Positions 32,617-36,287 of a stretch of DNA of 44,165 nucleotides are shown here, piece after piece (positions within the stretch are counted from its first letter, which is position 1; each line of letters opens with the position of its first letter). Both the position numbers and the translations under genes were made by a program. This DNA is from Candidatus Gastranaerophilales bacterium (GTDB taxonomy: Bacteria; Cyanobacteriota; Vampirovibrionia; Gastranaerophilales; Gastranaerophilaceae): assembly GCA_944326015.1 (NCBI GenBank), contig CALVCJ010000008.1, positions 1 through 44,165 of the forward strand, in the 5' to 3' direction. The notes beneath the pieces were generated by a model. That model worked only from the letters and a program-made list of their open reading frames with translations, had not been told where the DNA came from and did not search any database.

Positions 32617-33939
32617 TTATGATACAAATTTTATTAACTTTTTAATATCCTTATTCCACAATCCGTTCCAGTTGCGGATAATCACGTCTGCAGGCGTTAT
32701 ATCATTCATGGTATATTCTTTTATTGTATCAAGGTATTTTTCTTCTCCTAAATCCATTTCTATCAAAGACTTTTCAGCAATATACAAAATTTCTTTTGCT
32801 ATATCTTTTACAAAATATTCTCCAATTTTTGTATTCAGAGCACTTTTAGGAACATTGTAGCGAAGCTCCGAAAAATCACGATATGCAAACGATTTGAGTA
32901 ATTCTTCCACTTCTCCCATTGCCGTACGGCTGTATAAAATTCCTTTGTATATTGCAAGAATTGCATATTGCAACCCTTTGCCGTTGCAGTCATGATTTCG
33001 TATTTCAACAAAATTTCGCAGACGCACTTCGGGAAAATAAAGATTAGCTTGGAGTTTAAAATCATCCAAATTAGCTGTGAAATCTTCAAATCCGTTTTCA
33101 ATAAATTCGGAAAAATTAATTTTTCCGTTAACAGGAATTGCGCCAGATTCACGGTTTATAAATATCATTGGGGACTGAAGAACATAGCCAATGTATTCTT
33201 CAAAAGAAAATTTGTCGTCAATCTGTCCTACAAATCCGCATCTGTCATTATCTGTATTGAGCCAGCTCAGGGCGCGAAAACTCTTATAACCTGTTTCAAC
33301 TCCGCCTCTTATCGGAGAATTTGCAAACATTGCAGTCATAAAAGGGGCGAGTTTGTTTGCGATACGGAATTTGTCCATGGCATCTTCTTCGCTTTCGAAA
33401 TCTATACAGCACTGAATTCCGGCAGTTTCTCTCATCATAACATCTGATAAAATTCCCCAGAGATATTTTGCCATTAAATGATATCTTTTTTTAGGAATAA
33501 GACTGATTGATTTGTGTGTGGATAGCGGCGAAACGCCGTAGTTTAAAAGTGATATGCCTGATTTATCGAGAATAGGCTTCATTTGTTTATCAAGTTCGTC
33601 AATTCTTTTTTTGAGTTCATCAATTGTTTTTTCGGGTTTCAAACTCAGTTCAATCTGGCATCCGGGTTCAAGCGTAACCGTGTCATGCACCTGCTTAAGA
33701 CCTATTATATTGTAATCATCGGTTATGTAATCCCAGTTTTCTTCCTTTGCGAAATTCCTTAAAAAATTACATATCCCGAATTCGGATAAATAATCCGCGG
33801 CCTTTGATGTTACGGAAAATATCGGCAGTCGTTCGTATTCAATACCTATATTTTGCTGTTCCCTCGATTTGCAGCCGGATTTGAACAAATTTAAAATTTC
33901 TTTTTTATCTAATTTTTCCTGTGTTTGAATGTTTGTCAC
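32617..33939 (-). CDS. gshA: Glutamate-cysteine ligase (GCS2, plant/alphaproteobacterial type)
   Basis: First step of glutathione synthesis: joins glutamate and cysteine using ATP. 440 residues. Motifs NIGIEYERLPI, TLEPGCQIELS, YGVSPLS, MMRETAGIQCCIDF and PEVRLRNFVEIRNHDC match the GCS2 family. Starts at GTG with GGGGG six bases upstream. No glutathione synthetase gene nearby. gamma-Glutamylcysteine may therefore be a final or exported product, but the missing gene may simply be elsewhere. Confidence 0.9.
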   Translation of the reverse strand: MTNIQTQEKLDKKEILNLFKSGCKSREQQNIGIEYERLPIFSVTSKAADYLSEFGICNFLRNFAKEENWDYITDDYNIIGLKQVHDTVTLEPGCQIELSLKPEKTIDELKKRIDELDKQMKPILDKSGISLLNYGVSPLSTHKSISLIPKKRYHLMAKYLWGILSDVMMRETAGIQCCIDFESEEDAMDKFRIANKLAPFMTAMFANSPIRGGVETGYKSFRALSWLNTDNDRCGFVGQIDDKFSFEEYIGYVLQSPMIFINRESGAIPVNGKINFSEFIENGFEDFTANLDDFKLQANLYFPEVRLRNFVEIRNHDCNGKGLQYAILAIYKGILYSRTAMGEVEELLKSFAYRDFSELRYNVPKSALNTKIGEYFVKDIAKEILYIAEKSLIEMDLGEEKYLDTIKEYTMNDITPADVIIRNWNGLWNKDIKKLIKFVS

Positions 33940-34029
33940 ATTTACCCCCTATCCAATTATATCATCCACAAAATTATCAAAAAACTTTTTTTAAAACATT
34001 TACCTGTGTGTGGTATTATTATAGGTAAG

Positions 34030-34950
34030 ATGAACTACTACGAACGGGCAAAATATTTTAGAACAAAAAAAAGACTCGGCCAGAATTTTTTGATAGACGG
34101 GCAGACGATTTCCGATATCATTGATTTTGCGAATATCAAGCCTGATGATACGATAATTGAAATAGGCCCCGGAGTTGGCTTTGTAACAGAACAGCTCGTT
34201 AAGCATGCTAAAAAAGTTATTGCAATTGAACTGGATGAAGAAGCAATTAAGGAGCTTAAAAAGCTTGATGCGCCAAATCTTACAATTATTCATAATGATA
34301 TCTTGAAACAGGATTTATCAGAACTTTGCGAGGGAAAAGTCAAGGTTGTTGCAAATATACCTTATTATATTACAAGTCCTATTATTGCTCATCTTCTAGG
34401 AGAAGTTGATGATTTGAATAACAAAAACAGAAATAAAATAACAGATATTCTCCTTATGGTTCAAGAAGAAGTTGCAAGAAGAATGGCGGCAGATGAAAAT
34501 TCTTCAGGCAAACAATACGGACTTTTGACAATTTTATCGCAGTTTTGGGCAGATGTAAAAATTATGAAACTTGTCGGCAGACGGTCATTTTATCCTGCCC
34601 CGAAAGTTAATTCTGCCATTGTAAAGTTAGAGGTAAGAGAAAAACCTCTTCTTGATTTAACAGATTACACACATTTCAGGAAAACCGTTAAGGCAGGATT
34701 TTCGCAGAGAAGAAAGAATATTAAAAACTGTCTTTTATCAGCAGGTTTTCCAAAGGAAAAAATACAAAATGCGCTTGTTAAACTCGGGCTAGGTGAAAAT
34801 GTGCGCGGGGAAAAACTTTCAATAGAAATGTTCGGGCGATTATCAGAAGAATTGCTGGATATTTCACCCACCCGGAAATCGGAGATTTCCACCCTCCCCT
34901 CAAGGGAGGGTAGTGATACCGTTTTACCTGAGTCGAAGCAAGAGGATTAA
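34030..34950 (+). CDS. rsmA: 16S rRNA (adenine1518/1519-N6)-dimethyltransferase, with a repeat-encoded tail
   Basis: Dimethylates two adjacent adenines near the 3' end of 16S rRNA. 306 residues from MNYYERAKYF, with KKRLGQNFL, IGPGVGFVTEQL, ELDEEAI, NDILKQD and the catalytic NIPYYITSP. The domain ends at about EELLDI; the last ~28 residues (PTRKSEISTLPSREG...) are encoded by the 97-nt repeat at 34865-34961. Promoter: extended -10 TGG-TATTAT at 34011-34019, leader only a few bases. Upstream frame extensions are not supported. Confidence 0.94.
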   Translation: MNYYERAKYFRTKKRLGQNFLIDGQTISDIIDFANIKPDDTIIEIGPGVGFVTEQLVKHAKKVIAIELDEEAIKELKKLDAPNLTIIHNDILKQDLSELCEGKVKVVANIPYYITSPIIAHLLGEVDDLNNKNRNKITDILLMVQEEVARRMAADENSSGKQYGLLTILSQFWADVKIMKLVGRRSFYPAPKVNSAIVKLEVREKPLLDLTDYTHFRKTVKAGFSQRRKNIKNCLLSAGFPKEKIQNALVKLGLGENVRGEKLSIEMFGRLSEELLDISPTRKSEISTLPSREGSDTVLPESKQED

Positions 34951-34961
34951 GGGAGTGGGTG
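34865..34961. repeat. 97-nt structured repeat, copy A
   Basis: Ends CACCCACCC ... GTGGGTG (inverted). Internal hairpins GGAAATC/GATTTCC and CCCTCCC/GGGAGGG. Overlaps the rsmA 3' end. The first ~59 bases are nearly identical to copy C at 35388-35484. Confidence 0.9.
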
Positions 34962-34994
34962 TTTTATGAAAGTTTTACGTAAAATAAATAAAAA

Positions 34995-35038
34995 TACCGT
35001 TTCCCCTCCCTTGAGGGGAGGGGATTAAGGGGTGGGTG
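34995..35038. repeat. Half-copy B of the 97-nt repeat
   Basis: Matches the right half of copy A (TACCGTTT ... GATTAAGGGGTGGGTG) with CCCTCCC-TTGA-GGGAGGG-like pairing. It ends three bases before the DUF559 start codon and supplies its G-rich SD-like sequence. Confidence 0.85.
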
Positions 35039-35041
35039 AAA

Positions 35042-35485
35042 ATGAAATTTAAACACTCAAAAATCCAAAAACAAAATGCGAAAAATATGAGAAATAGTCC
35101 AGCGCCGGCTGAAGCAATTTTATGGTTATATCTTAGAAAAAGTGGGTTAAACGGTTTGAACTTTAGACGGCAGCAGCCTGTTGGAACATATGTAGTTGAC
35201 TTTTTATGCTGTTCAAAAAAAATAATTATAGAACTTGACGGCGGACAACATAGCGAAAATCAGGAATACGACAATATTCGTGACGAATTTTTAAAAAAAG
35301 AAGGTTATAAAGTAATAAGGATATGGAACAATCACATTTTTGATAATATAGAAGGGGTTATGGAATATATAAAAACTTGTATAGAATCACCCACCCGGAA
35401 ATCAGAGATTTCCACCCTCCCCTCGAGGGAGGGTAGTGGTGCCGTTTTCCCCTCATTTGAGGAGAGAGGAGTATGGGGTGGGTGA
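35042..35485 (+). CDS. DUF559 (Vsr-like endonuclease fold) protein flanked by repeats
   Basis: 147 residues. DUF559 signature: RNSPAPAEAILWLYLRKSG, FRRQQPVGTYVVDFLC, KKIIIELDGGQHSEN and GYKVIRIWNNHIFDN, giving the Asp and E-x-D/Q-x-H residues of a PD-(D/E)XK/Vsr-like nuclease. The domain ends near EYIKTCIE; the rest (PTRKSEISTLPSREG...) comes from repeat copy C. Repeat copies lie on both sides. The start is three bases after repeat B. Likely a nuclease involved in repair or in spread of these repeats; untested. Confidence 0.88.
   Translation: MKFKHSKIQKQNAKNMRNSPAPAEAILWLYLRKSGLNGLNFRRQQPVGTYVVDFLCCSKKIIIELDGGQHSENQEYDNIRDEFLKKEGYKVIRIWNNHIFDNIEGVMEYIKTCIESPTRKSEISTLPSREGSGAVFPSFEERGVWGG
35388..35484. 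repeat. 97-nt structured repeat, copy C
   Basis: Same length and same terminal inverted repeat as copy A (CACCCACCC ... GGGTGGGTG, perfect here). Its left half codes the DUF559 tail; its right end contains the GGAG and the GTG used to start ispE. Confidence 0.9.
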
Positions 35486-36287
35486 AATAAAAGTTCAGTG
35501 TCCTGCAAAGATTAATCTTGATTTAAAAGTTACGGGCAGACGCGATGACGGCTTTCATAATATAGAAAGCGTTATGCAGACTATCAGTCTGTATGATTAT
35601 TTGACAATAAAAACAGAACCCGCTGAAAATTTTGAAATAATTCTTTCCGGTAACAGTTCTGAAATTCCGTATGACGAAAAGAATCTTGTCTATAAAGCTG
35701 CAATGCTTTTTATTGAGAATACAAATCTTTCTCCTCATAAGATTGAAATTTATATAGATAAAAATATTCCTGTAGCTGCGGGTTTGGCCGGCGGAAGCAC
35801 TGATGCTGCCGGAACTTTATACGGATTAAATAAAATTTTCGGCCAGCCCTTATCAAATGAAAAATTGCATGAACTTTGTGCACAGCTCGGGTCTGATTTG
35901 AATTTTTGTCTTAATGGCGGTCGTCAGATGACCAGAGGAAGGGGCGAAATTTTAGAAAAACTGCCGTTTGAGAATATGAAAGTTTCTCTTATCAAACCAA
36001 AAAATTTAGGAATTAGCGCAAAAGAAGCTTACACAAAATTTTCGCAGAAAAAATCATCAAATTTTCAGTCAAAATACGGATCAAGAGACAATTTTAAAAA
36101 CGATCTTGAATGGGCTTTGATTGATGATTATAAAGAATTACAAACAATTAAAGCTTTATACCCTGCTGCTATAATGTCAGGTTCGGGATCAACTTATTTT
36201 GTTGTTAATTCAATATTTATACAACAAAACGGTTATTGGATATATAACAATCTTAATGCAGAAGAACAGGGGATTTGTATAATATAA
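35478..36287 (+). CDS. ispE: 4-diphosphocytidyl-2-C-methyl-D-erythritol kinase
   Basis: GHMP kinase of the MEP isoprenoid pathway. 269 residues from GTG (MGEIKVQCPAKINLDL). ATP motif PVAAGLAGGSTDAAGTL near 95-111, GSDLNFCL, and IMSGSGSTYF at the C-terminus. The GTG start and its GGAG lie inside repeat copy C, and the gene overlaps DUF559 by eight bases, so its translation signals were replaced or created by the repeat. Other MEP genes are not nearby. Confidence 0.93.
   Translation: MGEIKVQCPAKINLDLKVTGRRDDGFHNIESVMQTISLYDYLTIKTEPAENFEIILSGNSSEIPYDEKNLVYKAAMLFIENTNLSPHKIEIYIDKNIPVAAGLAGGSTDAAGTLYGLNKIFGQPLSNEKLHELCAQLGSDLNFCLNGGRQMTRGRGEILEKLPFENMKVSLIKPKNLGISAKEAYTKFSQKKSSNFQSKYGSRDNFKNDLEWALIDDYKELQTIKALYPAAIMSGSGSTYFVVNSIFIQQNGYWIYNNLNAEEQGICII

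Follow-up and report, generated by a model that had tools for sequence, protein, structure and literature searches.

The question raised by this locus is why a DUF559 gene between rsmA and ispE is enclosed by structured repeats, and whether its product could be what spreads such repeats. The window, that is, the whole analysed stretch of 44,165 nucleotides, corresponds to contig C8 in the 2.0-Mb draft genome of a Candidatus Gastranaerophilales bacterium, and the features of the interval are listed in Table 1. A first-pass annotation of the DNA had described two repeat copies of exactly 97 nt with terminal inverted ends and two internal hairpins (A and C), and a half-copy (B) abutting the DUF559 start. 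The lengths are borne out by the coordinates of both copies, which have the same orientation, are 92% identical across their first 65 nt and share the left end CACCCACCC. Both contain the hairpins GGAAATCNGAGATTTCC and CCCTCCCCTCNAGGGAGGG, as had been described, and copy C has a weak third one. The inverted ends hold exactly for copy C, whose right end is GGGTGGGTG, and with one mismatch for copy A, whose right end is GAGTGGGTG. Half-copy B (CCCCTCCCTTGAGGGGAGGGGATTAAGGGGTGGGTG) does abut the gene, with 3 nt between its G-rich end and the ATG. Allowing at most one mismatch, CACCCACCC occurs at 9 sites in the window against 1.9 expected, a number reached in 0 of 100 shuffles; this recurrence is not chance. 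For copies A and C as single-stranded DNA, the computed folding is 2.6-4.3 sd better than that of dinucleotide-shuffled sequences. Moreover, the reading frames run into the repeats: the rsmA frame enters copy A and stops at 34950, and the DUF559 frame continues through copy C to a TGA at 35483-35485, the repeat encoding the C-terminal tail and most of the stop codon. The GTG at 35478 in copy C is likely the ispE start. Integration at a tRNA was considered and rejected, as none was found in the window.

Table 1. Features of the rsmA-ispE interval (positions in the window)
Feature	Position	Strand	Remarks
rsmA ORF (16S rRNA dimethyladenosine transferase)	33925..34950	+	C-terminal tail lengthened by copy A
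Copy A, 97-nt repeat	34865..34961	+	starts CACCCACCC; hairpins GGAAATCGGAGATTTCC, CCCTCCCCTCAAGGGAGGG; degenerate right half, end GAGTGGGTG
Half-copy B, one triplex-type unit	35003..35038	+	C-rich arm/G-rich arm/spacer/second G-rich box (GGGGTGGGTG)
DUF559 gene	35042..35485	+	ATG 35042; domain 35066-35383
Copy C, 97-nt repeat	35388..35484	+	direct repeat of copy A
ispE (GHMP kinase)	35478..36287	+	likely start codon from right end of copy C

The assignment of the gene to DUF559 is confirmed by a match to the profile PF04480 (E=7.5e-39, 132 bits against a cut-off of 20.6). The solved structures closest to the predicted model of the window protein (pLDDT 90) are 3hrl, which is NGO0050 of N. gonorrhoeae, and 3r3p, the catalytic domain of the homing endonuclease I-Bth0305I, followed by Vsr; similarity to I-Bth0305I (3r3p) is also detectable in sequence (E=3e-4). 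The residues R17, E24, W28, F41, R43, Q44, D53, F54, E64, D66, G67, H70, R80 and R93 do not vary across 40 sequences, which leaves the presumed active site intact. The catalytic fold and the conserved acidic and histidine residues of EDxHD homing endonucleases are present (E24, D53, E64, D66, H70), the residue correspondence to EDxHD being presumed. On the model, DUF559 is a PD-(D/E)XK nuclease of about 110 residues with the Vsr/I-Bth0305I fold. A weak DUF559 match in genome G002 (L120, on contig C1) is a true vsr adjoining a cytosine methylase, and no such repeats were found in its inspected flank, which argues that the link to repeats belongs to DUF559 and not to the fold. A defence role was considered and rejected, as a weak DpdF match (E=2e-5) alone points to it. 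In the literature, a different DUF559 protein, VsrA of Caulobacter, has been proposed as a mismatch-repair nuclease and implicated in DNA damage (PMC12907096), and in Legionella pneumophila, segments carrying a transposase and DUF559 are hotspots of recombination (PMC12308824).

The linkage of DUF559 to repeats is general across unrelated bacterial phyla. Hairpins were scored as polypyrimidine/polypurine (C/T-G/A) structures at most 300 bp from the gene, in 44 of the 45 DUF559 copies with flanks from the genus of the window genome (Gastranaerophilales) and in 41 analysable loci of other phyla, obtained by scanning 84,980 species genomes with the flanks ignored in selection. In the genus, 38/44 loci have a hairpin upstream, 38/44 downstream and 32/44 on both sides (control windows 16/580); in the other phyla the numbers are 37/41, 35/41 and 34/41, respectively (control windows in those loci 15/619), and by eye hairpins are also visible at most of the loci scored as hairpin-free there, their arms being looser or their loops longer. 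The two flanks of a gene are usually inverted copies of each other, the median score of the upstream against the reverse-complemented downstream flank being 47 for own pairs and 21 for swapped pairs. Furthermore, loci with more similar DUF559 proteins have more similar flanks (Mantel r about 0.26, with p<=0.003 in each of three sets), DUF559 is the sole evident gene in the interval of the inspected cassettes, and a genome can have up to 8 DUF559 copies. The enclosure of the gene by repeats, as first claimed for this locus, is seen in the window and at most loci of the genus and of other phyla, but it is not universal: in Enterobacteriaceae, including E. coli ycjD, the repeats are almost all downstream. 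At one further locus (L100, on contig C14 of G030, close to the contig end), the outer flanks of DUF559 apparently are mutually inverted even beyond the repeats; either a large palindrome or an artefact of the assembly could account for this.

The first-pass annotation had drawn a parallel with RAYT/REP systems, one that equal numbers of repeats in DUF559-free genomes would speak against. Such equality is contradicted in two independent sets. Among 33 genomes of the genus, the 17 with full-length DUF559 hold 3-144 hairpins and the 16 without it 0-2 (Spearman 0.89), with nearly zero matches to the reversed pattern used as control; a few hairpins come with each cassette, which matters for these low counts and not for medians of 50. 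On a genus tree built on IspE and PriA, DUF559 and repeats show 7 state changes each, the 3 independent pairs on supported branches are all concordant, and phylogenetic independent contrasts between DUF559 and hairpins give r=0.71 (p=9e-6). In 246 genomes of Enterobacteriaceae, where the statistics ignore kinship, the median number of repeat cores is 50.5 in the 28 genomes with DUF559 against 0 in the 218 without, and at least 10 cores are found in 23/28 against 10/218 (p=5.6e-20, kinship ignored; reversed-pattern control about 0); genomes of at least 3 Mb alone give p=2.7e-15, again with kinship ignored. The DUF559-carrying genomes of other phyla hold 2-178 cores in 22 of 23 cases. Ten DUF559-free Enterobacteriaceae genomes hold 11-155 cores, and two of these repeat-rich negatives retain DUF559 fragments (G319, with 155 cores and one stop; G122, with 12 cores), which fits decay of the nuclease after the repeats had spread. 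The number of dispersed palindromes follows the enzyme gene, as in REP/RAYT systems, and the correlation in both sets gives strong support to the parallel and to the DUF559-repeat link.

The dispersed and the flanking repeats match in type to different degrees. In the window genome, the exact A/C type is present at this locus only, with two weaker relatives elsewhere, and the dispersed hairpins are of the B type. The A type is found in 10/17 genomes of the genus with DUF559 against 1/16 without, the highest copy numbers being 15 (G008) and 10 (G009). In G002, the sole DUF559 lies inside PriA with the repeats CCCTCTCCCGCAAGGGGAGAGGG, and the genome has 144 hairpins; about two thirds of the 30 listed share the core of the cassette or nearly so, and many also share its third box, GGGTGAGGGG. 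In G014, G015 and G020 there are few dispersed hairpins, mostly unlike the type at their single DUF559, and other or lost nucleases are needed to account for this mismatch. PriA of G015 contains a repeat remnant, which suggests a lost cassette.

Alleles with and without the cassette were compared at several insertion sites. At rsmA-ispE, DUF559 and repeats are present in five genomes (G000, G030, G022, G008 and G009), the genes abut or overlap in most other species and DUF559-free relatives, and in one locus (L126, on G019:C7) a lone repeat without DUF559 is found, with RsmA and IspE fused into a single frame of 613 aa. The empty-site comparison proposed at the outset for this interval thus yields filled, lone-repeat and empty alleles and shows the cassette to be mobile or losable. 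Directly before the Walker A motif of PriA, the cassette is inserted in frame in G024, G019, G002 and G021 (frames of 877-943 aa) and is absent in others. At another site of the near-isogenic genomes G020 and G032 (96-98% flank identity), the former has a lone repeat and the latter repeat-DUF559-repeat between the same outer flanks, so the cassette sits between direct repeats; the difference is either entry at a repeat or a loss by recombination between repeats like that leaving a solo LTR. The DUF559 clades of rsmA-ispE, PriA and a galE-like site are each bound to that one site, several DUF559 lineages are found at a carboxypeptidase site, and different sites can also hold close relatives (L070 and L074). 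No clean target-site duplication was found, and none is definable at rsmA-ispE or PriA; in E. coli, the alleles of the triplex-motif (TM) repeat at pstB-pstA, lldD-trmL and yihR-yihS were rejected as evidence of one, since a single 92-bp indel has an 8-nt direct repeat and the others are messy.

Two observations were made beside these sites. The loop of PriA that precedes Walker A is a hot spot for insertion: about ten more species have other in-frame inserts there, rich in GGCAAGAGGGCAAG and CCTGCCTTCCTGCC (L268, L270, L271, L273, L276, L278, L280, L281, L284, L287 and L288), apparently another palindromic repeat family. In the rsmA-ispE interval of G003 (L130), a degraded GIY-YIG-like nuclease frame (AGHIYFMSNEYDTTIYISVTSDL) lies on the minus strand between the inverted palindromes GTCATTGCGGGCTTGACCCGCAATCGC and GCGATTGCGGGTCAAGCCCGCAATGAC, which belong to a repeat type, ATTGCGAG, that is dispersed in G002 as well. 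This could be a second nuclease-palindrome pair.

The repeats have a published counterpart in E. coli. The TM_ECO pattern, CCCTCNCCC-N3-6-GGGNGAGGG-N3-GGGNGAGGG, is akin to BoxC and PIT and was found in 262 proteobacterial genomes and not in Salmonella; the 2015 survey saw no mobility gene near the E. coli copies and left their role open (PMC4666352). For E. coli 23 repeats are published, for N. gonorrhoeae about 100 GC-rich triplex motifs have been reported, and in Enterobacter sp. 638 a hairpin counted 100 times was taken as a terminator (PMC2869309). The gene ycjD of E. coli K-12 is a DUF559 gene with a partial and then a full repeat copy downstream; this repeat fits the TM_ECO pattern, and half-copy B of the window has the same layout with a variant sequence. 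Among 27 DUF559 genes of Enterobacteriaceae, repeats lie downstream of 23 and upstream of 4, so enclosure is not obligatory. The downstream repeats often form an inverted pair, the second loops CCG and TTA corresponding to what the literature calls type B and type A, respectively. Upstream of most Enterobacteriaceae DUF559 genes (L235-L257) lies a shared motif resembling CTGAAGCNNGATTCCAG ... CTGGCAGAGTG, which could be a promoter, an operator or a left end. Most of the ycjD region is present in 3333 of 5426 complete E. coli genomes. No clean empty allele could be accepted, because both inspected strains without ycjD (L295 and L296, compared with L154) have a cluster of a TetR regulator and an RND efflux pump in this region beside fabI. 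In the open literature covered, with few preprints among it, we found nothing linking DUF559 or ycjD to these repeats.

Because the gene is bordered by its own hairpins and the genomes carrying it are full of such repeats, DUF559 is probably the missing driver of the widespread BoxC/'triplex' repeat family. We assume, with a probability of roughly 70%, that the locus is one of a very widespread class of compact mobile units, in which DUF559 recognises its cognate repeats, cuts or nicks there and spreads them. This reading draws on the observed linkage across phyla, covariation of repeat and gene, genome-wide correlation, fold and catalytic residues, in-frame insertion, and cassette versus lone-repeat alleles; cleavage at the repeat, the chemistry of copying and the action in trans are what we infer. 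The mobile unit would consist of the nuclease and its GC-rich palindromes (C-rich arm, G-rich arm, spacer and second G-rich box). DUF559 would recognise the repeat, or its non-B structure, and nick or cut the DNA there, and repair or copying of the repeat-bounded DNA could then spread repeats in trans and, from time to time, the nuclease cassette itself. The ends of the repeats stay translatable: insertion can be in frame, and the termini provide stop and start codons. Cassettes thereby survive inside or between essential genes, for example priA and rsmA-ispE, and also in operons. Lone repeats would be targets, non-autonomous copies or leftovers resembling solo LTRs. A wider claim, on which we would lay even odds, is that DUF559 units form a separate class of autonomous mobile elements, in which a single Vsr-fold PD-(D/E)XK nuclease acts on hairpin/triplex repeats, and that the BoxC/PIT/TM repeats of all bacteria, E. 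coli among them, originate from these units. To our knowledge, no repeat-spreading enzyme belongs to the Vsr-type fold. If the proposal is right, a new nuclease class joins the enzymes that spread bacterial repeats, a 'domain of unknown function' gains a function, and the low-complexity inserts that lie in frame within PriA and other essential proteins are explained. Hundreds of genomes are known to contain dispersed GC-rich repeats of the triplex type, and a cognate nuclease would open their origin to direct tests in laboratory E. coli, where ycjD is the one DUF559 gene and many strains are without it.

The main rival is pure homing, in which DUF559 cuts a lone repeat or a conserved site in a gene, the cassette-bearing copy serves for repair, and the dispersed repeats spread by other means. 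The nearest solved relative outside DUF559 is a homing endonuclease, the clades at PriA, rsmA-ispE and the galE-like site keep to single sites, and the allele pair with G032, in which the 'empty' allele of G020 retains one repeat, is compatible with cleavage of the cassette-less allele. By itself, however, homing leaves unexplained why genomes with a single DUF559 can hold as many as 252 dispersed cores, as well as the match of dispersed to flanking repeats in G002, and related DUF559s at different sites are also at odds with it. We regard it as unlikely on its own, and homing and repeat mobilisation may be phases of one process. Alternatively, an unrelated host or IS enzyme could move repeat-bounded units with DUF559 as cargo. 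Some repeat-rich genomes without DUF559 would suit such a passenger, but no other gene is evident in the inspected cassette intervals, flank sequence follows DUF559 sequence, and the correlation appears in two unrelated groups and survives phylogenetic contrasts in the genus, which makes this improbable. Slightly less probable still is the reverse causality, in which DUF559 serves in repair or protection by resolving hairpin/triplex DNA and is kept only where repeats are already many; the similarity to the Vsr fold and the implication of VsrA in DNA damage in Caulobacter (PMC12907096) are in its favour, but the repeat borders, the multiple copies per genome and the in-frame insertion in other genes are left unexplained. 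That the repeats are nothing but terminators next to a nuclease gene, the interpretation given in Enterobacter sp. 638, is very improbable given their presence inside open frames (PriA, RsmA-IspE), the inverted copies that, except in Enterobacteriaceae, stand on either side of DUF559, and their near absence from DUF559-free relatives and from control windows.

Several known systems resemble the DUF559 unit preferred here. IS-derived MITEs likewise combine a larger relative that is coding with non-autonomous copies bearing inverted repeats, but DUF559 units have no DDE transposase and showed no clear target-site duplication. Rickettsia palindromic elements are palindromic repeats lying in frame within protein genes, like the DUF559 repeats; their sequence differs, and we know of no nuclease gene associated with them. 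The GC clusters of yeast mitochondria are short GC-rich mobile hairpins, sometimes adjoining homing-endonuclease frames, but they are organellar and go with other nucleases. EDxHD/Vsr-like homing endonucleases such as I-Bth0305I share with DUF559 the fold, a detectable sequence similarity and site-specific clades, whereas DUF559 lies outside introns and inteins, is bordered by dispersed palindromes and is barely more than a catalytic domain. REP/BIME sequences with their RAYT (TnpA-REP) have in common with DUF559 repeats the short dispersed palindromes, the inverted pairs, the same type beside the enzyme gene and the genome-wide tie of gene and repeat. The differences are that RAYT is an HUH/Y1 transposase and DUF559, by its PF04480 match, a PD-(D/E)XK Vsr-fold nuclease, and that the DUF559 repeats have another sequence, a triplex-like three-box layout and insertions that are sometimes in frame within proteins. 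Finally, BoxC/PIT/TM_ECO repeats (PMC4666352) share the layout of CCCTCNCCC, loop, GGGNGAGGG, spacer and GGGNGAGGG, the triplex being predicted here and hairpin folding alone computed, as well as the patchy distribution with high copy numbers in Enterobacteriaceae and Cyanobacteria and the type A/type B inverted pairs seen after Enterobacteriaceae DUF559 genes; they differ in that the window copies are a variant sequence with an extra hairpin in the spacer, and that DUF559 is here proposed as the cognate nuclease.
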